Below, piece by piece: positions 3,220 to 55,100 of a stretch of DNA of 64,000 nucleotides. Origin of the DNA: Mya arenaria (lineage: Eukaryota > Mollusca > Bivalvia > Myida > Myidae). The notes under the pieces were generated by a model. That model saw nothing but the letters and a program-made list of their open reading frames with translations, did not search any database and was not told where the DNA came from. Positions within the stretch are counted from its first letter, which is position 1, and each line of letters opens with the position of its first letter. The stretch lies in contig NC_069123.1 in the NCBI RefSeq assembly GCF_026914265.1, positions 53,376,473 through 53,440,472 of the forward strand. Reading direction: 5' to 3'. The position numbers and the translations under genes are program-made.

Positions 3220-6200
3220 CTACGCCAGCATAAGGGCTATAACCATAAGCCTATCAGCGTCGTGTATCCTGTGGGCAGCCTGGAGAAGCCGCACCCCTGC
3301 ACTGAAACAGTCAGATTCTGCCCCTGGCATCCCCTCCAGGTCAGCGTTGTGAGCTGCTCCTACCAACCTGTAAAAGAAATACAGTTTATTTCTTCTCATG
3401 AACATTGTGACAAAGATGGATAAATACTAGGGATGCAAACGAATGGCAAAATAGATATTCGAATATTCGTTAATTCTTTCGATCGAATATTCGAATATTC
3501 GATTACCGAAATTCATATTTAAGAAGATGTAGTAAACTACTATTAGTATTCGTTAAAGTGATAGCCGGGACATTTAAACCCTATTTTGTCGTAGCAAGTA
3601 CGCGCGGCGGACCCTGATTTTCCTCAAATGAGGCTTTGAAATTCTTCATTTTTAGGAAGAAAAAAAGCAATACATTATAAGCAGACAAACAACAAAATCG
3701 AATTATTCAATTCCGCTGTCTTTTGTAAACAATGTGAAATTAGATGGAGTCCTATGTTTTGCGCCAATAGAAGGTCTTTCCGTAGGATGATCAGCCTCGT
3801 TCTGAGATTGACCTATAAACTGACTAAATATAACTATGCAAAAATCCAAACCAACTCGGGAATACATATAGCCCGGAATTAACATTACAGGGTTTTCCCA
3901 TGCCGGTACAAATAAAAGGTGAATTTCGAGCTATTGAAATTCGTGTAACAGTCCAATGACTCTATTGTTTCCTAAGTAACATGTGTATATTACAACGGTT
4001 TAATTCTGTTTGTACCGGAGGATTAGGTCGGAAAAACCTAGTAAAACGAACACATTAGAGAATTGGACTCATCTATTGTACACCAATAGAAGAAATATAT
4101 CCTTAAATCCATTTCAAAGCACAAAAATTGTATCGAAAGATGGAAACAGTTTAAAGCACATATATGTAACAACATTATTGAGCACAATATTACATTATTG
4201 TGGCAATCATGTCATCACCTCGATTCGCGCTATGTTGCACAACATAATTTGCAGCCAAGATAACACATTCGTGTTAAATCCGATCCCTAGCCAGTTAATG
4301 TAAAAATAGGGGGACTTTTTATAGTACCCGACGATATGTCCCTAAATGACACATGACGCGTGTCTTGTCATCACATTCACACCTCTGGGATTAGGGGCCA
4401 ATCGTAGTAAAAACAAGATAAACGAGCTTTATAAACAACACCAGTGATGAAGGCACAATGTGTTTTATTCTCTTTATCGAACTTTCTTTTCGAATATTCG
4501 AATACCGATTTTGACAATCGAATACCAAACGTTTGATCGAATATTCGAATATTCGAATATTCGTTTGCATCCCTAGTAAATACCTGATAAACAATGGTCA
4601 AGTCAGAGTGAACACCTGATAAGCAATGGTCATGTCAGAGTGAACACCTGATAAGCAATGGTCAAGTCAGAGTGAACACCTGATAAGCAATGGTCAAGTC
4701 AGAGTGAACACCTGATAAGCAATGGTCAAGTCAGAGTGAACACAGTTAATTTGGTTAAACTCTCATTATTGCAATGACATAAATGAGGCGTTGCTGAACA
4801 GATGAGACTGCTTAAACTTTCTTGAAATATAACATAAACATTGAGACCAAGTTTTGTACAGCTTGGATCATGAAAAATGGTCAAGTATAAGAGGTGAAAT
4901 TTTGACAAAGGGCAATTAATGTAAGTATACTGAAGCAATAAGGCTGGATATCTAACATGTTGAAGACATTATCATACATGGAAATTGGTCAAGTAAGAGA
5001 GTTGAAATCTTTGAAAGATTGTGCTTGCGCCTCGTGAAATCTGAATCTGCAAAAACTACTTGAGTCGAATACAACCTCCCGGATCAAAACGCAGTACTAA
5101 TAACCCTATTATATTAACTACAATATGTCCACCATGCCATATTCCTCCTACCTTCGGACAATCTCGCAGCCTGCAAAGCCAGCCATCTCTGACACAAGGT
5201 TGGCTTCATATTCCTCACGGTTCTCAACACAAGCCGTCATGTGACTCATGTATGTACTCACTGAAACAAACCACACTCGGAAATCATGGCGATGTACAAT
5301 GTCCTATATTTATCAAATATATCTCTATATAGCTAAAATGATGTCAAAAAACATACAAGAAGCATTGTTCATGTAACTTGAACTACTTTAACAAGAGCGC
5401 CTTGGAGAAAAGGCTAATGCTCATCTGTTATTATTTTTTCAGTCAAACTAGATGCATAATTCAATAATTATTAAACCCAGATGTATGGGCCTTGGTGTTT
5501 TACATGTGTATATTGCTGCTGGGAACATGTATATCAACTTAATATAGGTTATATTTAACTATCTTAAATGTTTTTTAAAAGGTTAAAACTTTCCCACAAT
5601 GGCTCTCTTAATACTTTGACTTCTTTGCTTTGAAAAACAGATCAGTTAACAAATGACAGAACAACTTCATTACTATTGTAACTGCTTCAAGATACATAAC
5701 GTTTGCAGACACATACCTGTGAACTCCTCTTAAAGAACACAAAGTTTATTCAATGATAAAAAAAAATCACTGTTGGCATTAAGTTAAAGATTGTATGTTA
5801 CTCACGTATCAAGGAAACTTGTATTTTATACTTATAGATATAAAATGATAATAGATTATAGGTCTACATGTCTAGCAACTTAGATTCAATACTGGGAACC
5901 AACCCCTGTAATGACTGCTATCAAGATGCAAAACAATTTGTTTTTGTTAAATGACTTCTATAAAGTTAAGCATGAAACAAAAATTCTAATACAGTGGACA
6001 TAAGTTAAAAAAGCCATTTGATTTTGTTAAAAACCTAACAACAGTACTGTCTAACTGATTATGTACCTAGCAGTTTGCAGACATCAACCATCTGGTAGGC
6101 GAAAGCTCTGTGCTCATCATTATTTTCCTCGATAGACATATGTCGATAGTATACAAATATAAAATTGGCAAGCAGCATTCCCACATCAAAGGCCGCTGGC

Positions 6201-9200
6201 CCCACATGAACGAATTCCACATCAAACATGCGCGAGTCTGTATCGTTCACAAGGATTGAGCCGGTGTGAAGGTCACCATGCAACAGACATTCTTTCTTCT
6301 CAAGAAACAGCTTGAGCATGCGTGCAGCTGTGTCTAGCACCTGTTGGTCCTCGTATATTGTGTGTAATTTAGCTGCCACCTGATCCGAGCAGCTATTGTG
6401 AAGGCCGTCAGGTTTAAACGGGAATGTAAACACATAGTTCTCTGTCAACTGTACCATCTCCCTATTTCTGCAGTGCAACACAAAGTAAATGTCAAATAAG
6501 GGAAAGCAAAAAGGCAAATATTCATTACTGTATTATTTATAATCATAAAATACATTACACTTATTTATTATCATTATGAAAACATCATTATCACGACCAG
6601 TTGAATATTTATAAAAGAGCAATTGAAATCACCATGTCAGCATAAGAGCAATTGGAATCACCTTGTCAGTATAAGAGCAGTTGGAATCACCATTTCAGTA
6701 TAAGAGCTATTGGAATTACCATGTTATTAGAGCAATTGGAATCACCATGTCAGTATTAGGGCAATTGGAATCACCATGTCAGTATCAGGGCAATTAGAAT
6801 CACCATGTCAGTATTAGGGCAATTGGAATCACCATGTCAGTATCAGGGCAATTAGAATCACCATGTCAGTATCAGGGCAATTGGAATCACCATGTCAGTA
6901 TCAGGGCAATTAGAATCACCATGTCAGTATTAGGGCAATTGAAATTATCATGTCATTATTAGGACAATAGGAATCAACAAATCAGTATTGGGGCAATTGG
7001 AATCACCATGTCAGTATAAGGGCAATTGGAATTGCCATGTCATTATTAGGACAATAGGAATCAACAAATCAGTAATAGGGCAATTGAAATCACCATGTCA
7101 GTATTAGGGCAATTGGAATCACCATTTCAGTATAAGAGCAATTGGAATCACCATGTCAGTAAAAGAGCAATTGGAATCACCATGTCAGTATAAGACCGAT
7201 TGAAATCGCCATGTCAGTATTAGGGCAATTGGAATCACCATTTCAGTATAAGAGCAATTGGAATCACCATTTCAGTATAAAAGCAATTGGAATCACAAAT
7301 TCAGTATAAGAGCAATGGAAATCACCATGTCAGTATTAGGGCAATTGGAAACACAATGTCAGTATATGGGCATTTGGAAACACCATGTCAGTATTAGGGC
7401 AATTGGAATTATCATGTCATTATTAGGAAAATAGGAATCAACAAATCAGTATTGGGGCAATTGGAATCACCATGTCAGTATTAGGGCAATTGGAATCGCC
7501 ATGTCATTATTAGGACAATAGGAATCAACAAATCAGTAATAGGGCAATTGGAATCACCATGTCAGTATTAGGGCAATTGGAATCTCCATTTCAGTATAAG
7601 AGCAATTGGAATCACCATTTCAGTATAAAAGCAATTGGAATCACAAATTAAGAGCAATTGAATTCGGCATGTCAGTATTAGGGCAATTGGACTCACAATG
7701 TCAGTATAAAGGCATTTGGAAACACCATGTCAGTATTAATGCAATTGGAATCACCATTTCAGTATAAGAGCAATTGGAATCACCATTTCAGTATAAGAGC
7801 AATTGGAATCACCATGTCAGTATAAGAGCAGTGGAAACTACCATGTCAGTATTAGGGCAATTGGAAACACAATGTCAGTATAAGGGCATTTGGAAACACC
7901 ATGTTAGTATTAGGGCAATTGGAATCACCAAGTCAGTATAAGGGCAATTGGAATCACCACGTCAGTATAAGGGCATTTGGAAACACCATGTCAATATTAG
8001 GGCAATTGGAATCACCAAGTCAGTATAAGGGCAATTGGAATCACCATGTCAGTATAAGGGCATTTGGAAACACCATTTCAGTATAAGGGCATTTTGGAAT
8101 CACCAAGTCAATATAAGGGCAAGTAGAATCACCATAAGGGCAATTGGAATCACCAAGTCAGTATAAGGGCAAGTAGAATCACCATGTCAGTATAAGGGCA
8201 ATTGGAATCACCAAGTCAGCATAAGGGCAATTGGAATCCCCATGTCAGTATTAGGGCAATTGAAATCACCAAGTCAGTATAAAGGCAATTGGAATCACCA
8301 TGTCAGTATTAGGGCAATTGGAATCACAATGTCAGTATAAAGGCAATTGGAATCACCATGTTAGTATTAGGGCAATTGGAATCACCATGTCAGTATAAAG
8401 GCAATTGGAATCCCCATGTCAGTATTAGGGCAATTGGAATCACCATGTCAGTATTAGGGCAATTGGAATCACCATGTCAGTATTAGGGCAATTGGAATCA
8501 CAATGTCAGTATTAGGGCAATTGGAATCACCATGTCAGTATAAGGGCAATTGGAATCACCATGTCAGTATTAGGGCAATTGGAATCACCATGTCAGTATT
8601 AGGGCAATTGGAATCACCATGTCAGTATTTGGGCAATTGGAATCACCATGTCAGTATTAGGGCAATTGGAATCACCATGTCAGTATTAGGGCAATTGGAA
8701 TCACCATGTCAGTATTAGGGCAATTGGAATCACCATGTCAGTATTAGGGCAATTGGAATCACCATGTCAGTATTAGGGCAATTGGAATCACCATGTCAGT
8801 ATAAGGGCAATTGGAATCACCATGTCAGTATTAGGGCAATTGGAATCACCATGTCAGTATTAGGGCAATTGGAATCACCATGTCAGTATTAGGGCAATTG
8901 GAATCACCATGTCAGTATTAGGGCAATTGGAATTACAATGTCAGTATTAGGGCAATTGGAATCACAATGTCAGTATTAGGGCAATTGGAATTACAATGTC
9001 AGTATTAGGGCAATTGGAGTCACCATGTCAGTATTAGGGCAATTGGAATCACCATGTCAGTATTAGTGCAATTGGAATCACCATGTCAGTATTAGGGCAA
9101 TTGGAATCACCATGTCAGTACTAGGGCAATTGGAATCACCATGTCAGTATTAGGGCAATTGGAATCACCATGTCAGTATTAGGGCAATTGGAATCACCAT

Positions 9201-14708: not shown

Positions 14709-15633
14709 TTTTATGCCCCCTTTTGAAAAAAGTGGGGTATATTGTTTTGCACATGTCGGTCGGTCGGTCGGTCGGTCGGTCTGTCTGTCTGTCGGTCGGT
14801 CGGTCGGAATACCAAATGGTTTCCGATCAATAACTTGAGAACGCTTTGACCGAGGGACCTCATACTTGGTATGTGTATTGGTCATCACCAGCAGATGAAC
14901 CCTATTGATTTTGAGGTCAGTGGGTCAAAGGTCAAGGTCAGTGTGACCTTTACATGAAAAACGGTTTCCGATCAATAACTTGAGAACGCTTTGACCCAGG
15001 AACCTCATACTTGGTAGGTGTATTGGTCATGACCAGCAGATGAACCCTATTGATTTTGAGGTCAAAGGTCAAGGTCAGTGTGACCTTAACATGAAAAACG
15101 GTTTCCGATCAATAACTTGAGAACGCTTTGACCCAGGGACCTCATACTAGGTAGGCTTATTGGTCATGACCAGCAGATGAACCCTATTGATTTTGAGGTC
15201 AGTGGGTCAAAGGTCAAGGTCAGTGTGACCTTTACATGAAAAACGGTTTCCGATCAATAACTTGAGAACGCTTTGACCCAGGAACCTCATACTTGGTAGG
15301 TGTATTGGTCATGACCAGCAGATGAACCCTATTGATTTTGAGGTCAAAGGTCAAGGTCAGTGTGACCTTAACATGAAAAACGGTTTCCGATCAATAACTT
15401 GAGAACGCTTTGACCCAGGGACCTCATACTAGGTAGGCTTATTGGTCATGACCAGCAGATGAACCCTATTGATTTTGAGGTCAGTGGGTCAAAGGTCAAG
15501 GTCAGTGTGACTGTAAGCTGAAAAAAGGTTTTCTGATTGTCCATATTTTATTTTCTTATATAGTAGACAGTAGAAATTTATATGTCACTAAATGCATGAG
15601 TTGAAGTATCAGTTTTCAGTGAACATCTAGTTT
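14709..15633. repeat. 'tatgccccc' bivalve repeat with five internal 145/137-bp units
   Basis: It begins TTATGCCCCCTTTTG, then a CGGT/CTGT microsatellite, then units with GAACGCTTTGACC at 14839, 14984, 15121, 15266 and 15403. Spacing alternates 145, 137, 145, 137 bp because every second unit lacks 8 bp near GGTCAGTGGGTCAAAGG. The higher-order unit is therefore a 282-bp dimer. Each unit contains AGGTCAAGGTCAGTGTGACC. Confidence 0.85.
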
Positions 15634-15636
15634 AAT

Positions 15637-15897
15637 TATGCCCCCCTTCGAAGCAGAGGGGTTATATAATTGCTTTGCACATGTCGGTCGGTCTGTTGGA
15701 AGACCAAAGCTTGTCCGAGTGATAACTCAACAATTCCCGGACCTATGGTCATCAAACTTGACATGAAGATTAGGTATGACCAGTAGATGACCTGCCTCAT
15801 ATGCATCCAATGACAAATCAGCTGTCATTTCAGTCCATGCATATTTCATTCAATTGTCCAAATATTTCTGGCAACTTGGCGCTCAGGGGGCATAATG
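15637..15897. mobile_element. Short related 'atgcccccc' element with inverted ends
   Basis: It starts ATTATGCCCCCCTTCG and ends CTCAGGGGGCATAATG, giving short inverted ends. It contains GCACATGTCGGTCGGTCTG like its left neighbour, so it looks like a related single-unit copy. Confidence 0.6.
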
Positions 15898-16118
15898 TTT
15901 GACAAACATCTCTTGTTTTGTTCAGATTTATTAAAGGGGTCACTCCTTCCAACAATCTAGCATATAATAGCTATTATTATATATAGTATACATGCATATG
16001 TTGTTAAAGCATCTTGGAAAATGGAATGCAATATTAGGCCAATGCTTTTTGCATTGACATTAGTGTCAGAGTTAAAAATATAAGCTTGTGATATACTGTT
16101 CATTACAGGAATACCAGG

Positions 16119-18125
16119 GATTTATAGTCATTTTGTACCCTGACCATTTCGTACCCTCAGATTATTGGTCATTTCGTACCCAAGCTATAGTCATTTTGTA
16201 CTCTATATTTTATTTATATTTTTTTTCATATGAAAAACAATAATGGAGTGAATAATTCAATATAGACTCAATTAGTTAACATATATATGAAAAAATATTA
16301 ATCTGGTACGAGTCTTAACACTTCTCAGATTTTGATAATGGATGCTTTAATGAGCTGCTAATTGAGTTGCTAAACAACTTTAATTTGGACAGGTTTTAAA
16401 TTATCAAGACGTGTGAAGTTCTTTGTGTATTTCTGGTAAGTGGTGGCACTTGTTTAATTTTCTTCGATACTTCTGAGGTAACAATTTTACTTTTTAAAGT
16501 GACAATTACGAGGTGCAGTCAAAAAGTTCCCGGACTGGTTATATTTTGCACACTTTTGACGTCTGACTATGACGCTACTTGTCACACATATATCCTAACA
16601 ACATTTTTACATTTTGCAAGCAGAATTAATTACATAGCATCCATATTTTGATAGAGAAATATGTTCATTGTAGTATATAACCTACGCTACGGATCACTTT
16701 GAATTATCACCGATTACGAAATTGTTTTCACTGTTATTAACGTTAGAAATGCAATATTTTGGTGCCGTTTCATCATGTAAATTTACATGACGTCTCACTA
16801 ACGTCTTTTCTAAGCACACGTCCAAAACAAACATCATCGCTTACAAATTATTGAATAAGTATGCATTGTCTGAAGCCATGAAAGACATCGCCGGTGTGGA
16901 AACGTCAACGTCATCCGAGCGAACAGAGCAACGAACAGTCATTAACTACTTGGCGAGAGCGGGAATGACACCAAATGACGCATGGAAATTTATAAATCTG
17001 GTAGATGGTTTACGTAAATGTTCCCGGACACTCATATTGGACTGGCACAAGCATTTCCGGGACGGTCGTGACGACATAACTGACAATAATGGAACAGGAT
17101 AGTGGCAGTTCGACAAAATGCAACGTGTCATTTTCGTAGATCGGCGGAAATCGATCAATGTAATAGCTGATGTGTCGGATTTAGCCATGGGAATATACAC
17201 ATCATCTTGACAATTATTTATTTATTATTTATTCCAGGCATTTCTTATGATATGAATTCAGTTCACATTGAGTTAACATATGTTTGTGACATTTAAGACG
17301 TGTAGAGACATCTTACAAACTCATGGGAAAGAAACGCCCGGACTGCGAAATTAGATCTTTCATCAAGACAATGCTCCTGCACTTCTGGCTGAAGACTCAT
17401 TACTTACAATAGATTTTTGGGGGTATGAGAGACTGCATTATCGGACTTGTAGTGTCGACCTAGCGCCTTTGGACTACTGTGTATTTCCAAGATTAAAGGC
17501 CGACTTACGAGGTGGCAGATTTGAATCAGCAGAAGAAATGAAAATTGGCCTCAGATCGGCGGTTATGAAGCAACTGCGAAAAGGGGTGGTACGCAGATAT
17601 TTTTGAAAATGGGTAGATTGGCACAGAAAATGTATTGAATTTCAAGGGCAATATACTTTGAACACATTGACTAGCATACAAGCGCCTACATTGACGTAAT
17701 TTCATTAGTGAACGTCAACATTGCGTCATTTCTGTACTAAGTGATCCGTACAGTGTGAGTTATGTTAATTTGCTATGTAAAAAATGATTGTTTTATGTGT
17801 GATTAAAGGGTAATATATGTACAGTCATGTAGAATATAAATTCTGCTTTAGTTTGATGCAATTTTATTTTTTCAAATCCCAAAAATGACAACAGTACAAA
17901 GGCAGTCCGGGAACTTTTTGACTGCACCTCGTATAACAAACAGTATATCAAATATAATATAATTTATTTAAATATAAGATTCATATATGTGTTAATACAA
18001 AATGTCTTTATTCATTTAAGCTTCGTATTTCAGGACAAAAACCAAAATAAAAAATAGGGTTAGAAATGACTATAGGTCGGGTACAAAATGACCAAAAATA
18101 GGGGGGTGCGAAATGCCTAGTTCCC
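16119..18125. mobile_element. TIR element (MITE, ~580 bp) split by a nested mariner
   Basis: Imperfect terminal inverted repeats of about 70 bp: TTGGTCATTTCGTACCCAAG on the left matches TTGGTCATTTTGTACCCGAC in the reverse complement of the right end. Flanking direct repeats ATACCAGG (16111-16118) and ATACTAGG (18126-18133) give an 8-bp target duplication with one mismatch. Without the mariner it is about 580 bp with no coding capacity, so it is non-autonomous. Confidence 0.75.
16509..17931 (+). mobile_element. Degenerate mariner-family DNA transposon (DD34D), nested
   Basis: Perfect 29-bp terminal inverted repeats starting CGAGGTGCAGTCAAAAAGTT, flanked by TA on both sides (16507-16508 and 17932-17933). 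The plus strand encodes a helix-turn-helix N-terminal part (16851-17102: EQRTVINYLARAGMTP ... LILDWHKHFRDGRDD). Further on, in one frame from about 17360, come HQDNAPA and SVDLAPLDYCVFPRLKADLR, with exactly 34 residues between the two Asp, the mariner DD34D signature. A stop follows the N-terminal ORF and the middle of the transposase is not readable, so it is inactive. The identical TIRs argue against great age. Confidence 0.9.
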
Positions 18126-18276
18126 ATACTAGGACTCTGCATCACTTTGTGGATCCAAACACTTCCGTCATTTTATGTTTGTATACAAACAAGTATTGCA
18201 TGTATCAATTTAGTAATTTTGAACATATTTCTTTTTGTTAAAGCATCTTGGATCCATAGAATAAACTGTACATTAC

Positions 18277-18324
18277 AGGGATATCGGGGCAGTGCTTCAC
18301 TCGGTTGATCCAGACTTCTTTCAT
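18277..18324 (-). CDS. Candidate first coding exon of the MTR kinase gene (weak)
   Basis: On the minus strand an ATG at 18322-18324 opens the 16-residue reading MKEVWINRVKHCPDIP. An in-frame TAA lies just upstream and a donor-like GTAATG follows in phase 0, matching the phase-0 acceptor of the exon at 13794-13934. The peptide has no diagnostic motif and joining directly would give a short N-terminus, so another exon may intervene. It lies about 540 bases from ATF4 uORF1, in head-to-head orientation. Confidence 0.3.
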
Positions 18325-18860
18325 TATTTGGCTTAAACTTTGTGAATTTTATACGGTGCAAATACAATTTCTCATCGACAAAACGGTCCACCCGGAAGAG
18401 GTTGTTCCCAAAACTGTATGCGTCTGCGTGAAACATATGACGCACATGTGGTACTATATTTAGACACTCATTTTCTGGAGGTGTGTCAATGTCAGCCAAT
18501 AAAAGCTCAAAAGTGTAATTACGTCGACCTCTGGATATTTGCCAATTTTCTGATGCAATTTTCAAACCACAAAACTTCAATATGTCTACGCGACCAAAAA
18601 AATATTCCTTCAAATCGATTGTTCTTCTGCAAGCGCAGCATTCATTAAATATTAAAAAATCGTGATTAGCTCAAATTTTAGTATTTGCTATGATAAATAA
18701 GGAAAAAAGGATTTATATTTTCCCTACAACTTTTAAAATAAGCCACTAACGCGCATTTATATCAAACTACTTTTTAGCAAAACGTGCTTTGGCAGAACGT
18801 GCGCCATTCAACATTGACCAAGCGACGAAGATACATGCGAAGAAGACAACAAGCTGAAAT

Positions 18861-18872
18861 ATGGCAGCGTGA
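18861..18872 (+). promoter_or_regulatory. ATF4 uORF1, ATG-GCA-GCG-TGA (3 residues)
   Basis: A three-codon upstream ORF in the first exon, followed 62 nt later by the start of uORF2. Mammalian ATF4 mRNA also has a 3-codon uORF1 that lets ribosomes resume scanning. That the 5' end of this mRNA lies upstream of 18861 is an inference. Another ATG at 18835 would open a roughly 54-residue uORF ending just before the main start if included in the transcript. Confidence 0.65.
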
Positions 18873-18934
18873 TTGTGGCAACAGAACACGTGCAAAAGCA
18901 TTGCTTTGCACTAAAAACAACACTTATTTTCACC

Positions 18935-19548
18935 ATGGCGTAAGTACAGACTTTTAATTTAAAGTTTACTAACCGTATTGTAAAGTTATTGGTTTTAAAA
19001 TCATGCTGTTGATAAGCGACGACGTGGCACCTGCTCGTTACCATATTAAATTCTATCTGAATCTGAGCTGGTCCTAGATAACATGCAAGTATTTTAGTGT
19101 GTTTTTGTGTACGTACCAGCTGCCTATTATGGTTGGTTTGGTGAGCGCCTTGGTGGTTGTGGGTTCGAACCCTACAAGGGGGGTGGGGGGGGGCGGGGCG
19201 GTAGGCAATTCCTCCATAGGGAACCTTTATTTTAATGACGTCTGTATAAAAACGGTTTGTCAGAAGTGTAGTTAGTGTTGATTGGATTCTATTAGCAAAA
19301 TTGTGTCAACAGTAACGCTCCAACTAAGCGAACATGAAGCCAATTAGTTTGTAAGTTTCAACATTATTAACTTCCATTTCAGGTTCCCCAACGTGTACTT
19401 GTTCCTGGCAATAGCCTCATACATCGGATATACAGAATTTGAAGACTATGTCGAGTCAGAGTCTATACAGCAGCATGGAGTTCTCCCTGCAGTTGGAGAG
19501 CTCCCTGGACGAGATGTTCGGTCTGTCGGCAGATGTGTATGCCGCTGA
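18935..19548 (+). promoter_or_regulatory. ATF4 uORF2, spliced, 56 residues, overlapping the ATF4 start out of frame
   Basis: ATG in a good context (CACCATGGC) at 18935. After five coding bases the exon ends at a GTAAGT donor (18939/18940), and reading resumes at 19383 after TTTCAG. The frame (MAFPNVYLFLAIASYIGYTE ...) ends at TGA 19546-19548, beyond the main ATF4 ATG at 19448, an overlap of 101 nt (74 nt from the in-frame ATG at 19475). Vertebrate ATF4 uORF2 is 59 codons and overlaps in the same way, blocking ATF4 translation unless eIF2-alpha is phosphorylated. Confidence 0.75.
19141..19175 (+). other. tRNA B-box-like motif in ATF4 intron 1
   Basis: GTGGGTTCGAACCCTAC contains a good RNA polymerase III B box (GGTTCGAACCC), preceded by GAGCGCCTTGGTGG. 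No A box at proper spacing and no cloverleaf was found, so it may be a SINE scrap rather than a tRNA. A G-rich tract follows. Confidence 0.3.
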
Positions 19549-20899
19549 CCTTGGGACGGAGGGAGGCATTCTTGATCTCGGCCTAAATGGGGGTCTTAAA
19601 CCACATCAGCTTGACCAGCAGGCTGTCCAGGCATCACTGGAGGATTTCATTCTTCCAGAAACACCTGGAGGTATGTTGAATGTGATTGTACCGGCTCTCT
19701 TATAGGTACATGTGCGCAGTTGAACTGGTTTACCTCTGTCTTATTCGATGTGCGATCCAAAAGGTGACTTAAAAAAGTTGGTATTAAAAAGATAAATATG
19801 AAATTGTACATTTTCTAAATGTTACCAAATGTGTTGCTGGTTTTAAATGCAAAGCTATAGTTTGATTTCTATTTCAGATCTACTTGATGACTGGATGGAA
19901 ACACTTGATATAACATCTCTTCTTGATACAAGCAATGCCCCTACAGTAACTCATTCATCAGCACCATTAGTTCAGCTCCCCAGTGTCAACAAACCAGTGG
20001 TCTCCCCAGCCACACGGATAGTTTCTTATACAACCAACAAAGGTGATGACGAGCCGAAAAAAGAGGGCATGAAGATTGCTGCATTTGAATTACTCAAAGC
20101 ACTACTAACAGATAATCAAAAGCTCGTTCAAAGCAGTGAAGCAGAAATTGCTAAAGTTGAACCTGTCATGATGCCTGTACAAAGAGTATTCCTAGAACCA
20201 GTTGAATCACCAGAAGCTGAAGTTCCAAATCTTGACTTCTCTGCATTCATTGAGGAAAATGTTTCTTTTGACATTAAAGATGAAAATGACGGTGATCAAT
20301 CACACACCTCATTTCAAGATTTGCTTGAAATACAGCCTGTTGTATCCTTTGACAATGGTGATGTTGCTGAATTTCAACCTGAATATGACAGTGCCTTAAT
20401 TGCCAGTATTGAACCTTTGACAAATTTAGGCGTTTCTTACACTGCAAAGGTCTGCTCAGCAACCCCACCAAAGTCACCTAAATCAGAAACATTTTCCGAG
20501 CCTTCATCTCCAGAGTACTCCAATGACATTAGCACTATTGACACCAGTTACCTCGATGACAGCAGCTGGTCTAGTTCAGTTAAAAGCAGTCAAGTGTATG
20601 ACCATGAGTTTACTAAAATTAAATCCAAAAAAAAGAAGTCAAGGTCAGATCCATATGATGCTGATTTTGATCATATTTCTGATAAAAAACTGCGAAAAAA
20701 AATGCAAAACAAGAATGCCGCCACTCGTTATCGTGTTAAGAAACGATCAGAGAAAGAAACACTTCAGGAACAGGAATTGCGTCTGTCTGACAAAAATAAA
20801 GAAATGCGAGAAAAAGTAGAATCTTTGCAACGTGAAATAAAATACATGAAAGAACTCATGAGTGAAATAAACAAAGCTAAAAAGCAATCTAAATACTGA
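19448..20899 (+). CDS. ATF4: ATF4-type bZIP transcription factor
   Basis: CREB/ATF family activator that directs amino-acid synthesis, transport and redox genes in the integrated stress response; nuclear. Coding exons 19448-19670 and 19878-20899 (intron GTATGT...TTTCAG, phase 1) give 414 residues; human ATF4 has 351. The C-terminal bZIP (about residues 340-410) has the basic region KLRKKMQNKNAATRYRVKKR, with the NxxAAxRYR core typical of ATF4/ATF5, then leucine heptads (LQEQELRLSDKNKEMREKVE). The N-terminal half is acidic and has DLLDDWMETLD, like vertebrate ATF4 activation segments. The start at 19448 is the first in-frame ATG; 19475 (AGCATGG context) is an alternative. A non-coding first exon ends at 18939 and carries uORF1 and the start of uORF2. 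Distinguishing ATF4 from ATF5 rests on the uORF layout and length. Confidence 0.9.
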
Positions 20900-22560
20900 A
20901 ATTTGCAAAAATATTCATCCCAGGTTTTTGATCTTTAAGTGATTTTTTCTTGTGTACAAAATCATGATATTGATACTGTGACTCATTGTACATTTTCATT
21001 GATAAAATTTGTAAAATAAATGAATATCCATGGTCAACTACCTTGTTTTGCCATAATATCGACCACCTATCCAAGATTGTGTGTAGAGAAATATTTTATA
21101 ATTTGTATTATATGAATAGACCCAAGTTGTGTAAAAATAGCAGTTAAACTAGAAGAATGAGCTCTAATTGCCAAAATAGAGGATATTTGTTTTGTATCAG
21201 AATAGTATGACAACACTTGTGGTTTCTGGATCAACTATTGATCTAATGTGGTATGAAATACTAAAATCTTGGTCCTATTTTTATTAAGTCGAGGGTTGTA
21301 AAAATATTAATGCTTGTCCAAATTCGAAAACAGATTTTTTTTTGGATCGTTATTTGAGAGCAATGGTAATATTGGTCATTTCAACATCTAGAACAATGTC
21401 AAATATCAACACAAAATATAGTGTAGTGTCACTACTTTCATAAATTTGATGGTATTGATCCAGTCCAAGAAAATCGTCAGATTTCTCAACATAATTTTAG
21501 GACCAGTGTGTTTATGCATCATCCCGGTTAATAAACAAGGTCGTATCATTGTGAATGCGTGAGCGTCTTAATAACACACTTGTTAAAAACAGTGACTAAA
21601 TGGAGATTTGGTGGTTGTTTCCTGATTGATGTATGTTTAGGTGTTGTCTAAAAAATCGAACGTGAATATGTCTGGCAATCCAACAAGTCTAGATATGAGC
21701 CAGAACAATAAAATTCAATCCCGTTATGGGAGTTTCAATTATTATCCATTACACACTATCAATGAATGCTTTCTGTGAAAAAAGCAGAGGATTTAATAGA
21801 TCTTAACGGAATTGTATTGAAAACTGTCTAAATGTATGAATGAGATACCGTAGTTGGTGAATTGGGATACCACTGTATTGATGCAAACTGCTTTAACATC
21901 AATTTCATGTGTATGCACACAATTGCACTTCACTTCTTAAATCAGTTGGAGAGTTTATTTCAAGATGATTTGTTATGTACTGCAGATGCAGTTTGCTAAT
22001 TAATTGACACCCCTACAAAACACTATTTTTCAGTAAATGAGGTAGTGGTATGGATGGGTTATTTGACATACTGTAAGTCAATTGTAGTTTTCAGTCATAT
22101 AAACAGCAGAGAACAAATTCATTTTAAGATTTTCTGTTGAAAACAAGAGAAGCCTGCTCTACTTGAACCTGACAATGCAGCTGTGTTATATTGAGTTAAA
22201 AGGCTCACAGTTTTGGTTGATGCAACATTTTTTCATGCATTATCCTGTTGACTCATTTGACTAACATGATCAAAACCAAAAAAAGCTTACAATTGAGGCA
22301 AGATAAAAAGTTTGTTTATATAAGCAGATATCTTGGTGCTTTTTCAATTGTGAAATTTGTGGCCAAGTAGATATAAATTCAAAATCATTTATTGAAATAG
22401 TAAACGTTTGGAACGGCAATATGTATTTTTAGGTTCAAAGCTCTGTGCACCCGACCACAACAGTATTATTCCTTATGTCTTGCCTCAACAATACTTTATA
22501 TATGAACTGCTTTCAAACTTCCTAAGAACATAGCTCTGTGGTATATTTCAATACAAAGAG
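20900..22560. other. ATF4 3' UTR and intergenic AT-rich DNA
   Basis: Probable 3' UTR after the ATF4 stop. AATAAA-type signals occur near 21015 and 21707. Nothing else coding or repetitive was recognised. Confidence 0.45.
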
Positions 22561-22599
22561 TCAACAAGAGCTGTCACAGCATGTTATGAATGGGACATT

Positions 22600-23290
22600 G
22601 ACCTTTGAACAATGTCAGTTCATAAAAAAGGGAAAAAAATTGCAACGAAATGTCCATTATGTCTAACCAATATTGCTGGTGCATTTGCAAGACCACATGG
22701 CATTACGTTTGTGCCATAGGATTGAAACTCCTCTATCCTTTATGCGTAACAACAATACAGCGTGGGTCTATTGCCTTTATGTGTCAAATACATTTAAAAA
22801 AAATTGCCTCTAAAAATACCACCAGGACACAACCAACTATTCTCGATGACCTTATATGCAGCATTCCATAGTAAATAAATTCTAAGTGTGACCTTGACGT
22901 TAGATGTATGGACACGGGTCTTGCGACATGTCAACTTGGTATGTGAAACACGTGTGGCAAGTTATTTGAAAATTTGTCCATACATGAGAAAGTTACAGCC
23001 TGGACATGACCACCTATACACTAGGTATGTCTTATTTGCAGCATTTCTTACTGCATTCATACACTAAGTGTGACCTTGACCTTTGAGGTAGGGATTTGGG
23101 TCTTGCAGGCAACACATCCTCTATATATGCCAAACACAATCATGTGGCAAGCTATTTTAAAATCTGTCCTTAACAAGAGAAAGTTACAGCTGGGACAAAA
23201 GAAGTTGAGCCATACTAACGGATAGACAGATCGACAGACGGTGCGATTTTAATATTCCCACCTTCCGATGCATATAAACACGCCGGGTAA
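22600..23290. repeat. Bivalve dispersed repeat, about two diverged ~185-bp units
   Basis: Two related units (about 22845-23020 and 23030-23210) share TAAGTGTGACCTTGAC, GTGGCAAG and GAGAAAGTTACAGC. The same family recurs at 46150-46450. The right end has a polypurine/GACAGA stretch and a short CCTTCCGATGCATATAAAC tail. ORF 22650-22871 falls here and is not a gene. Confidence 0.7.
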
Positions 23291-23299
23291 TCATTGGAG

Positions 23300-23890
23300 C
23301 CATAACATTTTGTTATGTGTTGAAAATGCTCCAACGCGTCTTCCATTATAGTGCCAATGAGTGGAATATGGATGTAAACTGTGAGTATGGTTTCTTATTT
23401 TTCATTTTTAGAGGTTTATACGATTAAATTCAAAAAATTGAGAATGTAGTTCAACAGAGGAATGGCCACGAGTTGTTCTACTGGTAACCTACAATGCTGG
23501 ATAAACAACAGAACTTTTAAGTCCAGTCAATTTCAATCCATGTGAAGGAGAAAGTTTAAATCAACAGTTCATATTTTATGCCAAAAAAGTAATCGATTCA
23601 TCTTCATAAAAAGCCACATACCATTATTATTTAAAACATATAACCATTAGTCAAGCATCAGAGGGATGTAGGTTAATAAATATGTATAGTGCCTTGAAAA
23701 TAATGACAAGATTTTCACACCATTTTGCATGAAAACATGTATTTCACCAAGGTATTAAAATACAGATCGACCATTCATTTTTCTAGTAAAAATTGAACAA
23801 TGTACCATTTGCAGTCTACAATTCACTTTGTATAATGTTTTTAACCAATGCACTGTTCCCTGAAAACTAATTTGCCATGTTCACTATATA
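23300..23890. other. Non-coding stretch before the COX10 3' end
   Basis: AT-rich with no exon or repeat recognised; the right part is probably COX10 3' UTR. Confidence 0.45.
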
Positions 23891-26800
23891 TCACAACGAA
23901 GGAACCAATGCAGATTGTGGATTTGTTGACTGAAGTTGCTCTGGTTTGTTCTCTCCTCTTTTCTTGCATGCAATCATTAACACCATAAGTATTGGTATAT
24001 GAGCTAGAGTGAATCTAAACAGTTTTCTTGAAGAGTTACTGTCCCCTTTTCTGTAGAAGTTCCATGCCAGGTATGACATGTACACATTCAGGGGTAGTGA
24101 ATATGCCACAAAGGTCCATGTGGTGAGATCTACAAGCGGGGCCACCCCACAGAGTCCAATCATTCCAATGCTGTGACGTAGAGCAACTCGCTTGCACATG
24201 TCTGGTCTCACCACGCTCGACATGCGGTAGCCCCCACGGGAGTAGTCTGGACGGAGGTTCCAGGACAGAGAGTTGAAGTGGGGGAACTGCCATGCATAGA
24301 GAATTGCTGCCAGCAACCATGCTCCTGAACATATAGAAGTATATTATACTTTTTACTCTTGATAGCTTAAACTAAGTCCCTGTATTTTCAATTGATTTAT
24401 TAGTATTTATTCACTACTACCCGGTAGTAGTTGCAGAACTGTAGATAAATATAAACAATAAGAATTAAATTTCCTACACAAATTGTCATTATGAACATCA
24501 ATGAAATATATGTACATAAAATTAAGTGGACATCTAGAGCAAGTTTTATTCTTGGCCAAGTAACTACATGCATGACCAATACTTTAACAATATTACAACA
24601 ACAAACAGATGAGTGAATAAAAGATTGTTCCATTGACAATCAATGCTTCAATATCTTTAAAGTATGTTACTTTTAAACTTTGATAGGTCAAAAGTAAGTG
24701 TACAATATACATGAGACTGAAAAGATTTCAAGATCAAAATTTTGTTTGATGAGAACTCTATATAAAACAGATTTCCTGTCATTTTCCTCCTTTCTATCTT
24801 TTCTTTATTTTTCAATATAAGACATTACCAAACATTGAACAAGGTCAAGTTTTAACTCAACTTTTGAGACATTTACTGATACCAGGATAAACAATGGGTC
24901 ATGATGACCTGATTTATGACCTTGTTGTCTCCTATCTCCACTACATAACTGGACATTTACCTGGCTCAAGGCCCCCAGTGCAGGCAGCCCAACCCATCAT
25001 AGGCGGGATGGCACCAACCACAGACCCAACCCATGTGTTTGCGATGCTGTACCGCTTCATGGGCGTGTACACCATAGTGTACAGCCCGAGGTTGAAAGCC
25101 CCCAGCGCAGCTGTTACAGGGTTTACCCCTGCAGCCAGGATTCCAACACCCATTGTACCAGTTATCACAGAAAACGTAGCAGCATGCAGGGGACTGCAAT
25201 AAAAAATTATAACATTCTTTAGCTCTTACTGTCAGACAAATGTATAAAATGTTGTTTATAATTCATAGTTCTGTACACCAGTAAATACTTTCCAAATAAT
25301 CTAACCTCAAATGACCCCTGACAAGGACTCTGTTCTTTGTTCTGTTCATCTGTGCATCAAAGGGCACTTCAAAGAACTGGAAAAGAAAACAATCTATTCA
25401 ATCCCTGTAATTCATCATTTTATGCAGTATATTAACACCAAATGTAGCACGGGCATTTTACTTTTCAGTTAAGTTTTTTGCTTTGAAGATTAAACATGAA
25501 ATGTTTCAAACACAAGGAAGACAGATATTTTATAGCAGTTACCGGTATGTTTTAACTCTTATGATCTGTGTGAATAGTTCTAGACCCTATTTGACATTTT
25601 TTTTTTATAACCAGTGGCATAGCTTCCTATAGGCCGCGGCCTACACAATTTTCAGTAAAACAATAATAAAAATGCCAAATCTGCAATAAAAACTTAATTA
25701 ATATATCGGAAACCAGGTATTTCAAATCTATCGTTTTCCTTTTCACTAAAATACACATTCATACGACATGAATGTTACGTATATAATTTGTCGTAATTTG
25801 CATACCAGTAGTCTGCGCTTTGACGCTGTTTATTACATAAAACATTTATTTAAGGTAAAACATATTGATATCGTTACTCTCATTAATGTTTTTACAACAA
25901 AGAATTATACGCTAAAACGCACCCAAGACCACCTAGCTAAAACGAAATCCCAAGGATGCATGCCCTTGTGCCCCCCCCCCTCAGAGAGTGGCCTACACAT
26001 ATACGTCAAGCTACGCCCCTGATAACCAAATGTATTTTTGAGATAGTTTTACCAAAAGTATGCCAAAACTGCTTGTCAGTTTTTGTTTGCCAAAGTAGTG
26101 TCTAGTAAAATTATTTTATTCAACCTATGAAAACTAAACCATTTTGTTTAAATAACAGTTACCTGATTGATGGAATTAGCTGAGCAGGATGTGAGGGCTG
26201 TCCCAGCAGTACACAAAAGAAATGTGCTTAACATGAAAGGGTCAGGCGCCATGGCGTACCCAGCCATTGTGGTGATTACTACCAAACCTGCAATTATATA
26301 CCGAAATCCACATAACTTATAACATACCATATGATACTCTAAAAAGCAATTATAACATCATGGCAATGGTATTGCTGCTAAACTACATATTAAAGCCAAA
26401 AGCTGAACAAAACAAAACTGAAAACAATAAACATACTAACCAATGACAATTATAAGTTATTTTGCAAAAAAACCCTTATATTATAGAGAACATCATTCTC
26501 CATGGAGGAAATTAAAGGATATTCATACAATGTCATGAACATTCAATGCTGTCAGAATTTATCCCAAATGTACAACTAACAAAAAAGATCCTTTTCTTAC
26601 CTGTCAGTCTGATTTTTGAAAGTTTCATGTAGTATTCAGGTAGCTTGTTGTAGTCCAGTTTCGTTTCCCGCCACAATACCTCAGTGATGGATTCAATATT
26701 TTGAGCTGGGTTTGTGTTATCCATTTCCAGTTCCTCCACGTAGTCAAGATTGATTTCCAAAGTCTCATCTCTGTCTTTAACGTTCACTTCTATTGGCTTA

Positions 26801-37800: not shown

Positions 37801-40800
37801 TAGATAATTTGGCATAATTAGCTATGCTATTAAAAAGCTTTTTTTCATTTATTTATTCAAAGATTTTCAGTAAAGGAACTATTTTAACTTAACCTCGCAC
37901 TTTATAAGTACTACATACTGTCATATTCATACTTTAATGTGATAGTTATATGTAACTTTCTCAACTATAACTTTATGTTACTAAATTATGTAAAGTGACT
38001 GTGATACAACTACGGCAATATTAATTTTAATGCATAAAGACTAACTTTTAATGTATTTGTGCAATTTCGATTACAGCTATATTATTACTTAAATATGCAA
38101 TGCCTCCCTATGCCATGCCACCAAAACAAAGGACCACAATGGAAATAAGAGTTTTCTCTTTTTTGTGTCATCCTTGGTTCGGTGTGCCTGTCATGACTAT
38201 TGATAATATCGTGTATGTATAATATTATATATATATATTTACTATATGTACATGTTGTTTATTTTAAATGTCCATGTATGTGCATTCCTTACTGAAATAA
38301 ATCTATCTATCTATAAGTAAGAAATAAACCCATTTGAGAATTGGTTACAGCATGTGAGGACATTTGCACTGTTGAGCGTCTGTTCTCAAGCAGCCTGGTG
38401 GCCATTGTCAGCCTCTCCTCACCCAGGAAACTCAAGGTCTGTCACTTCAAGAAGGGCACAGAGATCTGTAACTACAGCTACTCCAACTCCATACTCGCCG
38501 TGAAATTGAACAGACAAGTATGACATCAAGAACTTACAGTTTTGTTTGTACATGTATTAAAAACTTTTCAAATGATGCATTGTACCTTTTTAAAATTTAA
38601 GCAATTACCCAGATTTTCAATTTCAACAAGGCAACAACCATTTTTCTATTCAACTATCATTTGGATTAAATCCAAGAATCACCTAATATTTGTCAATATC
38701 TGGATAAAGATTCTTACATGGATAGCACACTGAACACTGCTTTAATTCCTCTGTCTGAATATCCAACAGAGATTGATAGTATGTTTGGAGGAGAGCCTTT
38801 ACATCCACAACATCCGGGACATGAAGGTGCTACACACAATCAGGGACACGCCCCCCAACCCCAACGGCTTGTGTGCACTCTCAATCAGCAATGACAACAG
38901 CTTTTTGGCATACCCCGGCAGTAACACCATTGGAGAGGTCCAGATATTTGACACCATAAACCTGGTCAGTGCAAAGTTGTGTTTTTTATGTTCTAGAGAA
39001 GGAACATTGTTTCAGTATATATCATTAAAAAATCCTTTCTTGGACTAATGATAAGTCATCTCGAAATTCTGTGAGTCAGCGTTAATTAAAAGTGAATTCT
39101 TGCCACTTTTGAAACAACTGTAATGCAGTTCTGCTGTACTTCACTGCTTCTGTCTTACACCTTTATTCATAGTTTTAGTCATTGTAGGAAACCAGAGATG
39201 GTAACAATTAATGAGAAAAAAGAGTTCAACCAGATTCATATTTCACACTAGTTTCTATCAATACTTTAGATAAAAAAATATGATGATACATAACTTATTT
39301 ATGCATAAAGTTACTCTATCTAGATAAAAATCATCTGGGTGACAACCTTAAAATCTATAATTTTAGGTTTTTCTAGGGTTAGGTCCCCTACTATCACCAA
39401 TAGTTTTAATTTACATAAATTAAAATTTTCAGTGATTATTATTATACTAATGAATGAAATTTGAAATTGATGTAGATTAAAACATTAATTTATATGACTG
39501 CATTGGAAATTTGGATAATCTTATTTATGGCAGAACTCTTTATAAGCAATTTGTAATAATTCCACTTTCAGCGTGCTGTGGCAATGATCCCTGCCCACGA
39601 TAATCCTCTCGCTGCCATTGCTTTCAATGCTCAAGGAACCAAGATAGCTACTGCTTCAGAAAAAGTAACAATATGATTTGGTATAATAAGATCATATGTT
39701 TTAGCTTGTCTTTACATATATTAGTATCAGAGCCCCTTTGTTTAAAAAAAACAATCATGTCACATGGATTTAAAGTTCATGGTTGTCATCTAGGACTCTG
39801 TCTGAAGGCATCTTTTGTTAATTGACTGATGTTCAGTTCTCAATGGTGATATATGATGATCAGATACTGTGGCCACTTGAGGCCATTTCCTGAAGAATCC
39901 TAGGAGCAAATTTTTACCTAGATATGATAATTATCAGAGACTTAATAATGTCTAAAATCTCTCCTGGGCTGGGTTTTTTCCTGAAAGGCCCTTGCTATTT
40001 AAGGCAAACAAGTAACCTCTGTTTATCATAAGCCCATTAAGATGTAAATCCAATGTAATTTTTCCAGGGAACTGTGATACGAGTGTTTTCAATACCAGAT
40101 GGACAGAAGATGTTTGAATTCAGACGAGGAATGAAACGGTATTTTCATAAACTTGATATATTGATATGTACAAATATGATTTTAACTGGGAAACCATTAT
40201 GTTTTATTTTTGGATGTTCTCTAGTCTAGCCTCTTTAAGGTGAAAGTTAGTGTTCTTTATGTTCCTATAACTTTATCTGTCTTAAAGTGATAAATATTTA
40301 TTCATTTTTTTAGTTCTATATCCTTTTATCTTAATCAAAATACTTTTTTTGATCACTGGGTCCTTATTTTAAAGGCAGAATTTAAGATTGTTTGTTTTTG
40401 TATCTGTAAACGTTTCAATAATTGTTGCAATTTGTGTATTTTCAGATGTGTACATATATATGCCTTAGCATTTAGTTCAGATTCTACGTACTTGTGTGCA
40501 TCCAGTAATACCGAGACTGTCCATGTATTTAAACTTGAAACCCAAAAGGAGAGGTACAGTTTTTTGCATGTCTTAATTTTGATTGTTCAAAACTTAGAAA
40601 AAATAAAAATAAATACATTATGTAAAAGTATGGTTAATGTCTTGAAATATTATCATAAATGTCACTTACATGCCAAGTAATCAGATTTATCTACATACAA
40701 GTTCACTGCAACATGTGAAAAAGTACTTAAGTTTAAACATAATCTTATCTAGTTGTTAATTGATTAATGATGTCAGTATATTTAACAAAAATCTTAAGTT

Positions 40801-52103: not shown

Positions 52104-55100
52104 CCCCATTTATATAGCACTTTTATCATAAAAACATACGTTCAAAAGTGCTTAACAAACAAATATAAGTATATATACAAAAACATATATAGAAAGAATT
52201 TATAAGGCAGATGCACATGATAAAAATAAACACTACTGCTACATACAACCAATCTTTAAAACTCATCAGAAGGTATTAAAAAGTATAAAAGATAAGAAGC
52301 GATACTAAAACAGTATATGAAAACAATAATCCTTAAAGGCCATTATTACTTAAACCACGGACCTATGTTTATAGGTCCGTGTTTAAACTGAATTAATAAA
52401 AGTGTAAGATTTAGGAAGTTCCCGCGAAAACATCTTATCACATGACCAACTCGACCAATCGTTTTGTGCGCACTGTGTAGTGTTCTAAAAATAAAACAAC
52501 TCGGGGGCAATCGTAATGAAATTTTACTTATGTTACATTCACCACATTCACAAATAAAGTAAGGTGAACTTTTTATTCCGATATCGATTAAATTGAAGAA
52601 ACAGCTTACCTCATGGTTTATCAATGTAGAAAACATAACAAAACAAAATAAAAAATAATTATTCCCATTCACATAAATACCGGTCCTAGTGATCCCTGAT
52701 GATACTAGACATATTGAAATAAAATAAGGTTTTTTTCTTAAATTAAAATAAAATTAGTGTACGTATTGGGAAATAATATATGCATGTTTAAGTTTATATA
52801 TATGATTGTATCTGCTAGTTGCGGCTACCATCTATTAAATATTGATTATGACACATATCTAAATTACATTGTTAATATGTATGGCCTAACACAGTTTTAT
52901 ATTTTGTCCTAATCCTATTGTTAAACGACCATCGATAGTCATCGTCTTATCAACATTACATGATTGTATACTTATTTTAACGCATTGCTGAATAATTATT
53001 TAAAGTTTAACCGTAAATGTATAACTACTTGTCCCATCTGAACGTAGTTGATTTTTTTTACAGTTCTTCAACATATGTTTTACTTATTTCTCTTTCCCTT
53101 TTTGTCTCATTACTTAGCCACACCCCAGGAAACCCTTAATATGCTTATATTTGTTTCTCTTTTGCTCCGATCGCAGGTTGTACATGTTTGTCTGTATGTT
53201 GTATTGTATCCGCATAGGTGATTGATCTTCAAGCATATAGATCTGCGATCGGACTTTTTTATTGTAAAACACAGCGCTTTCCAACGACTTCAAGTATACG
53301 AGTACATTCGCTGGGTAGCCTTGTTCTGAAACTTATATTTTATATATTATTCATAAAACAACTCCTGAGCACCTGGCTGCATATACAGGCCGTTAATATT
53401 CCCGCGTCCTTTTCAGGCATATTTGCTTTGTTTGGCACGTTGTCAATAGTAACTCGTTTTGATAACGATTTTGCGGATATGATGTATTTAAACGACCCTC
53501 TTTGCGTTTTGGTTTTGTCTGTTTCAACTGCATTATACAGGCTGCTTATTATATCTGGTGATATTGAACAAAACCCCGGTCCAGGAGACACAAACAATTT
53601 CAGCTTCTCACTTTTTCATCAAAATATCCGTAGTATACGTATTAATAAAATCGATTATGTCAGGGACAATCTGTCAGATTTTAACATACTTTGCTTTACG
53701 GAAACGCATTTATCACACGAAATTCTAAACGGAGATATTGCTCTCGAAGGATTTGATACTGTTTTTCGAAAAGACTGTTCATCGTACTCTGGCGGTCTTC
53801 TCATCTATACGTCATCGGTCTACAGACCGAAACGATTATTTGATATTGAAAATATTATACCAGAATCTATTTGGGTGCAAGTTTATGACAGATCAAGTAG
53901 TTATATAATTTGTAATGTATACCGCCAACCCAATACATCTGTTGAAATGTGGGAAAGATTACATTTAGGCATTGAGAAGGCTTACGAAATTTCGAACCAA
54001 ATCATCATCGTAGGTGACATAAATGAAGATCAACTCAATACTTCAAATCATAAATTTAAGGATATTCTTCTTTTAAATAATTTGACAAATATAATTAATG
54101 CTCCTACGCGAGTGACAAATACCTCTGCAACACTTTTGGACCCAATCGCGATAAGCAATAACATAAAACTGCATCACGCTGGCATACTTGATTCAAATAA
54201 CTCGATCAGTGATCATCTAGGTACTTTTGCATACATTGATTTTAACTTTCCGGAAAATAATACTTACCAAAGGCGAGTCTGGAACTATAAACGCGCAGAT
54301 TTTACTAAACTAAATGACCTAATTAATAATTATGATTGGTCTTCTTTACACCCGCTTGATATAAATACAGCAACACGTAAATTTACAGAAATATTCATAA
54401 ACTTAGTCAAACAATGTATTCCAAATTATTTAGTTACTATACGATCCGACGACAAACCATGGTACACAAACGAGATTCGAAAGTTTTCAAGACAACGCGA
54501 CAGGTTAAAGAAGGTAGCAACCGTAAGTGGTAAAACATTAGATTGGAATAAATACAAAACTTTTAGAAACAAAGTTAATAACATGAAAAAGTACGCTAAA
54601 ACAATTTTTTATAACAACATTGAGGAGTCTTTAAATGATTTCAAAAACAACAATCAAAAACAATATTGGAAGACCGTAAAGCTCTTAACTAAAAGCAATA
54701 CAAACTGTGACCAGAATATACCACCACTGCAAAACAATGACCAGTCATTTTCATTTACTGACACCGATAAAGCAACTACTCTTAATAATTACTTTTCGTC
54801 AATATCTACTGTTGATGATTCAACTTCTTCTCTTCCTCCATTTGCCTCTAAAACCAATTCCTCTTTTACCAATATTATTATTAATGAACAAGAAGTCACA
54901 GACATTCTTGGTATTCTGGATATAAATAAAGCAACAGGACCTGATCAAATATCTCACCGTATGTTAAAAGAAACAAAAAATACAATTTGCAAACCACTCA
55001 CAATATTATTCAACAAATCGTTAGTAGAGACCACTTTTCCTAGCGATTGGAAGTTAGCTCATGTATTGCCATTATTCAAAAAAGGTGAAAAGTATTTGCC

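Follow-up and report, generated by a model that had tools for sequence, protein, structure and literature searches.

The integrated stress response has ATF4 as its main output. For the human gene, passages of PMC11058473 give a uORF1 of 4 codons and a uORF2 of 60 codons, and place in the middle of the uORF2/ATF4 overlap a stem-loop, SL3, that causes ribosome queuing and is highly conserved among vertebrates. In the numbering of those passages, A286 lies just past the AUG and A326 in the stem, and an AUG 17 codons in is located in the loop; reckoned from this numbering, SL3 extends over about CDS nt 44-51. Mutation of the loop AUG gave no observable effect, according to the same passages. Delayed reinitiation as the sole mechanism is disputed for human ATF4. 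Outside the vertebrates, passages of Hiraishi and others (2014; PMC4176352) report paired uORFs in Aplysia, an arrangement conserved in metazoa except nematodes, and also name the yeast GCN4 leader.

The 64,000-nucleotide stretch of the Mya arenaria genome analysed here (the window) contains an ATF4 gene with such a leader. The uORF pair itself is ordinary for an animal ATF4. Two other features give the clam leader its interest: a predicted hairpin resembling SL3, which lets one ask whether the hairpin layer shares the age of the uORF pair or is confined to vertebrates, and a predicted intron two bases past the uORF2 AUG, which would allow splicing to determine if the inhibitory uORF is present at all.

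The ATF4 gene and its leader

The coding part of the gene comprises the following features.

19448-19670 and 19878-20899, plus strand: ATF4 CDS, joined exons, 414 aa
ATF4 residues 342-400: bZIP domain (PF00170, E 9.7e-08)
19475-19477, plus strand: in-frame AUG at ATF4 codon 10, strong context AGC ATG G
19671-19877, plus strand: predicted intron 2, GT...AG

Besides the bZIP domain, the protein has a sole PDB match at E 0.001, namely 1ci6 ATF-4 (E 4.8e-10), and in this comparison, which covered Pfam and solved structures, it is a bZIP protein closest to ATF-4. The gene was called ATF4 in the earlier note, and both matches bear that name out. Its AUG (19448) has A at -3 and lacks G at +4. A search of viral contigs for ATF4 relatives returned 33 stretches that fit a pattern, none of them a true relative.

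Several other features lie in the window. Immediately upstream of ATF4 and pointing away from it, a 165-aa open frame (18173-18670, minus strand) contains most of a 260-nt run that is identical in both copies of the locus described below and is the longest such run in 15900-23500; the frame has no Pfam or NCBIfam match and is possibly a gene sharing a two-way promoter with ATF4. Neighbouring gene exons include a heme o synthase-family (COX10-like) exon at 23891-24343 on the minus strand and PROPPIN (WIPI-type) exons at 38746-40680 on the plus strand. At 6059-6532 on the minus strand lies a likely S-methyl-5-thioribose kinase-like exon of an animal genome (TIGR01767, E 4e-33; 115 bits against a whole-protein cut-off of 275). 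A LINE-type retroelement with endonuclease and reverse transcriptase domains occupies 53218-56748 on the plus strand, its open frame stopping at 56415 with a similar frame directly after. No Rfam match at gathering scores and no tRNA was detected in the window.

Upstream of the ATF4 start, the leader contains three uORFs, a small hairpin and a predicted intron.

18835-18939 and 19383-19442, plus strand: uORF0, 54 codons, weak context TAC ATG C
18861-18872, plus strand: uORF1, ATG GCA GCG TGA (MAA and stop), 3 codons, strong context AAT ATG G
18890-18913, plus strand: small hairpin between uORF1 and uORF2, 24-nt window, -9.3 kcal/mol
18935-18939 and 19383-19548, plus strand: uORF2, 171 nt, 56 codons plus stop, context ACC ATG G
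18940-19382, plus strand: predicted intron 1, 443 nt, phase 2 in uORF2 codon 2, donor GTAAGT, acceptor TTCAG

The frames and their start contexts are read directly from the DNA; for splicing and the mRNA 5' end, the sequence provides predictions. The donor GC/GTAAGT directly follows 18939 and the acceptor TTCAG/GT precedes 19383, placing intron 1 two bases after the uORF2 AUG. Given this predicted splice, uORF2 crosses the ATF4 start in the -1 frame and overlaps it by 101 nt. The distances are 62 nt from the uORF1 stop to the uORF2 AUG, 70 nt from the uORF2 AUG to the ATF4 AUG once spliced, and 132 nt from the uORF1 stop to the ATF4 AUG. As in other paired-uORF ATF4 leaders, a short upstream uORF1 (of the 2-3 codon kind) precedes a long out-of-frame uORF2, and both uORF starts are in good context. 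A 3-codon uORF1, a 56-codon uORF2 overlapping ATF4 by 101 nt in another frame, a uORF2 ATG five bases before an intron and an agreement of the pair with the vertebrate plan had all been claimed previously, and each of these claims holds at the coordinates listed above.

Chance expectation and the second copy

Could such a layout arise in any AUG-bearing 5' leader without a regulatory role? The leader was dinucleotide-shuffled with the CDS fixed, 20,000 times under each of three assumptions about the 5' end. In 26-36% of shuffles, a uORF of at most 5 codons was followed by an out-of-frame overlapping uORF, a frequency that favours chance uORFs, and the pair with a first uORF of exactly 3 codons appeared in 6-10%. 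By contrast, the pair with a purine at -3 and G at +4 at both starts was obtained in 0.2-0.3% of shuffled leaders. The layout alone is therefore not rare, whereas the layout combined with two strong starts is; the latter, together with the recurrence of this plan in other animals, speaks against chance.

A further comparison is offered by a second copy of the window, which lies on the contig that holds the window, at a distance of about 0.90 Mb (about 54.28-54.34 Mb). All four stretches searched (19.4-19.9, 38.7-39.2, 5.9-6.6 and 62.0-62.6 kb of the window) matched there at 98-100%, and the part of the window from 12.7 to 28.6 kb aligns to the second copy in four blocks at 96.4-98.3%, with differences at 216 of 14,654 aligned sites (1.5%). 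The second copy may represent an unpurged haplotype or a genuine large duplication; a leftover haplotype is possible because haplotig purging is described for the Mya arenaria reference in passages of PMC10663159.

Between the copies, none of the 225 leader sites differ (leader taken from 18780, an assumed start), in contrast to 20 of 633 intron sites (Fisher p 0.0034; another alignment of the introns gave 23 mismatches in 630 aligned columns). Conservation of the leader does not significantly exceed that of exon 3, where 10 of 1,022 sites differ (p 0.22). At the regional rate, zero leader changes would have a probability of about 0.035, and identical runs of at least 200 nt between the copies occur elsewhere in the locus too. 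The second copy retains all four AUGs, every uORF start and stop codon, both splice sites of intron 1 and the stem of the hairpin; uORF0 and uORF1 are unchanged and the uORF2 peptide is identical. Eight of the 11 coding differences alter the ATF4 protein. The unchanged leader adds to the evidence against uORFs that are there by chance and have no regulatory role, an explanation that we regard as very improbable.

The copies also differ by insertions. With like splice sites, intron 1 measures 1,325 nt in the second copy against 443 nt in the window; the second copy has an insertion of about 0.88 kb, flanked by the 10-base repeat GGTTCGAACC (window 19162-19171), that is absent from the window copy. 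The repeat lies within a sequence resembling a tRNA-type B-box, and ARAGORN found no tRNA. Conversely, about 1.2 kb of the window (14712-15908) is missing from the second copy, with a 10-base match overlap at the ends, and is likely a mobile-element insertion. A third ATF4 piece (C8:72207001-72217000, about 5247-7448) consists of 649 bp of exon 3 (98.5%) adjoining a rearranged part of the ATF4 3' flank and is apparently a captured, dead gene fragment. It had been considered as a processed copy that would prove splicing, and was rejected as such because it is an exon-3 fragment without the leader and with a rearranged 3' flank.

The second copy bears likewise on uORF0. This frame overlaps uORF1 and the uORF2 start and terminates 5 nt short of the ATF4 AUG; the earlier note leaves its AUG at 18835 out of the text, though the ribosome-profiling range proposed there begins at 18835. 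It matters only if transcription starts upstream of 18835, in which case uORF0 would overlap both uORFs and take some ribosomes. In that situation uORF0 might be a main regulator, acting through leaky scanning or start-codon stringency. Its presence and constancy in both copies, the start at 18726 of a 256-nt run identical between them, and the weak-context uORFs before uORF1 reported for ATF4 leaders in passages of PMC4176352 are in keeping with this idea. Against it stands the start context, with weak bases at both -3 (T) and +4 (C), so that most ribosomes should bypass uORF0; we consider control by this frame unlikely.

A predicted hairpin in the uORF2/ATF4 overlap

The overlap between uORF2 and ATF4, which was folded after human SL3 was already known to the analysis, contains a strong predicted local structure.

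19477-19504, plus strand: predicted SL3-like hairpin, 10 bp, 8-nt loop, -16.4 kcal/mol, CDS nt 30-57, mid-overlap

In predicted strength this hairpin equals the vertebrate queuing stem-loop, and its place is about the same. The G of the codon-10 AUG forms the first base of its stem. Between the copies, the sole exon-2 change (19494) produces ATF4 L16S, leaves the uORF2 peptide unaffected and sits in the hairpin loop, and the second-copy hairpin, with the same stem and this one loop change, is predicted at -16.7 kcal/mol.

Local tests set the hairpin apart. It is the strongest of 1,443 28-nt and of 1,437 34-nt windows of the mRNA; with 24-nt windows, CDS nt 188-190 scores better. Across the 64 kb, 3 of 31,986 28-nt windows (plus strand, step 2) are as strong, the hairpin itself included. 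Its stem pair probability is 0.66-0.98 over six leader/tail contexts. Folding of the whole 118-nt overlap region is unremarkable (z -1.0; matched by 37 of 200 shuffles). The regional fold gives the hairpin no support and does not stand out around what is otherwise a strong mid-overlap structure of the SL3 kind; the local tests do support it, except for the 24-nt windows.

The hairpin arms double as a direct repeat (GAGnnCTCCCTG twice), and for this reason a small duplication could have produced the structure. The hairpin may accordingly have no function and be a by-product of a repeated codon pattern (GAG-N-TCC-CTG twice) and high third-position GC, an account to which we give slightly less than an even chance. 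Apart from the repeated arms, it draws on the unremarkable regional fold, on the better-scoring 24-nt window and on the 14 of 3,000 resamplings with exon-2 codon usage that were as strong as the hairpin. It sits less well with the other synonymous controls, in which 0 of 1,000 shuffles, and 1 of 3,000 when the uORF2 frame had to stay open, reached the same strength. Also opposed to it are the GC-matched 28-nt windows of the 64 kb (2 of 2,647 as strong, the hairpin itself included), stem pairs at or above 0.70 in five of the six contexts (0.66-0.68 in the sixth), and a location like that of human SL3.

Codon choice in the overlap provides a further line of evidence. GC3 is 0.76 over ATF4 codons 1-34, which form the overlap; the remainder of exon 2 has 0.40 (p 0.002), and exon 3 has 0.29. 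When ATF4 was resampled synonymously 20,000 times per codon pool, 4.6-5.1% of the sequences left the uORF2 frame without a stop through CDS nt 98, and among 1,000 synonymous resamplings 58 kept it open at least to CDS nt 101. The GC3 excess is as expected if the overlap were under a second constraint, of frame or of structure; a base-composition gradient could do the same. A more far-reaching reading, which we hold tentatively and think doubtful on balance, is that a queuing stem-loop predates the vertebrates or arose twice, with the overlap selected at once for the ATF4 protein, the uORF2 frame and the RNA structure, and with an intron, set two bases past the uORF2 AUG, that supplies a uORF2 stop codon through its donor.

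Probable reinitiation, possible control by splicing, and known systems

By analogy with the described leaders, the bivalve ATF4 leader probably works by delayed reinitiation. Scanning ribosomes would translate the 3-codon uORF1, after which the 40S subunit would stay on the mRNA and resume scanning. With plentiful eIF2, ribosomes would reinitiate at uORF2, whose context is optimal and whose AUG lies 62 nt downstream, and would terminate 101 nt into the ATF4 frame; with eIF2-alpha phosphorylated, recharging would come late, uORF2 would be passed, and ribosomes would start at ATF4, 132 nt past the uORF1 stop. The overlap hairpin (CDS nt 30-57) may slow ribosomes, like SL3 in human ATF4. The transcription start and splicing on which this scheme depends, the translation and reinitiation steps and the effect of the hairpin are what we infer from the arrangement of the leader. 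An eIF2-alpha exon with the phosphorylation region (SELSRRRIRS; the phosphorylated serine is named Ser51) is present in the same genome on contig C13 near 15,062,384, and an upstream switch can therefore exist in this genome; a PF07541 match lies about 10 kb away and presumably belongs to the same gene. A profile search of the genome for the GCN2 domain PF12745 gave no match, the controls being equally silent. The earlier proposal that delayed reinitiation works here too is partly supported, by the ATF4 identity, the vertebrate-like uORF pair and the eIF2-alpha exon, and the mechanism itself is probable by close analogy.

It had also been suggested that the intron gives splicing a chance to change uORF2. 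The idea can be put more sharply, because retention of intron 1 gives ATG GCG TAA, a 2-codon uORF2 whose stop is supplied by the donor. On this basis, intron retention might replace the 56-codon inhibitory overlapping uORF2 by a 2-codon frame and thereby set ATF4 repression. The unspliced reading is exact, and the 64-kb window, taken on both strands, has a single ATG that combines A at -3 and G at +4 with a GTRAGT no more than 6 nt away, namely that of uORF2. In mammals, a review (passages of PMC13163986) describes a shorter ATF4 transcript, made by an alternative promoter or splicing, that lacks uORF2 and becomes more abundant during stress, and notes an ATF4 RNA that retains an intron when PRMT5 is inhibited; since these forms are known, the idea of controlling uORF2 through RNA form is not novel. 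That review, however, describes the mammalian intron-retaining form as nuclear and unstable, and in the clam a retained intron 1 would bring five more AUGs, with frames of 24, 4, 48, 4 and 6 codons all ending before ATF4. The stop, moreover, arises automatically in every phase-2 intron with a GTRAGT donor, for which reason we rejected it as a sign of selection. Taken together, a splicing switch of this kind appears quite improbable.

As regards novelty, the clam uORF pair is not new, since passages of PMC4176352 report it for Aplysia and for metazoa except nematodes; novelty is low for the pair and moderate for the hairpin and the intron placement. The word 'intron' is absent from the main text of PMC4176352, and no mollusc SL3-like hairpin or intron two bases after a uORF2 AUG was found in the portions of the open-licence literature consulted. 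Passages of PMC7083229, PMC10187673, PMC10441410, PMC4764583 and PMC4865139, and likewise of PMC4629278, PMC8514241, PMC12816580, PMC12839439 and PMC13163986, hold no statement on an invertebrate SL3 counterpart or on the human ATF4 intron position.

The human system comes with experimental data, whereas the clam leader is known here from sequence alone. The two nevertheless share a short uORF1 and a long uORF2 overlapping ATF4 in the -1 frame. If the human counts of 4 and 60 codons are taken to include the stop, the clam values are 4 and 57, the clam uORF2 being slightly shorter. The human ATF4 intron may interrupt uORF2 at an equivalent place. Both mRNAs have a stem-loop in the middle of the overlap (-15.4 kcal/mol for human SL3 according to passages of PMC11058473, -16.4 kcal/mol in the clam) and several in-frame AUGs, one of which touches the stem-loop; that AUG lies in the loop in human and, as codon 10, at the stem base in the clam. 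Two human features have no clam counterpart, namely a start-stop element in the leader (none from 18700 on) and a near-cognate CUG about 20 nt upstream of the stem-loop (no CTG in 19448-19476).

With the leaders of Aplysia and other metazoa, the clam shares a short permissive uORF1, a long overlapping uORF2 and a weak-context upstream AUG before uORF1. It differs from them in having neither the third short uORF that overlaps uORF2 upstream of the ATF4 AUG nor the second in-frame AUG within uORF2 seen in arthropods. The yeast GCN4 leader, in turn, has four uORFs, none of which overlaps the coding sequence, and couples reinitiation to eIF2 activity in the way proposed here for clam ATF4.
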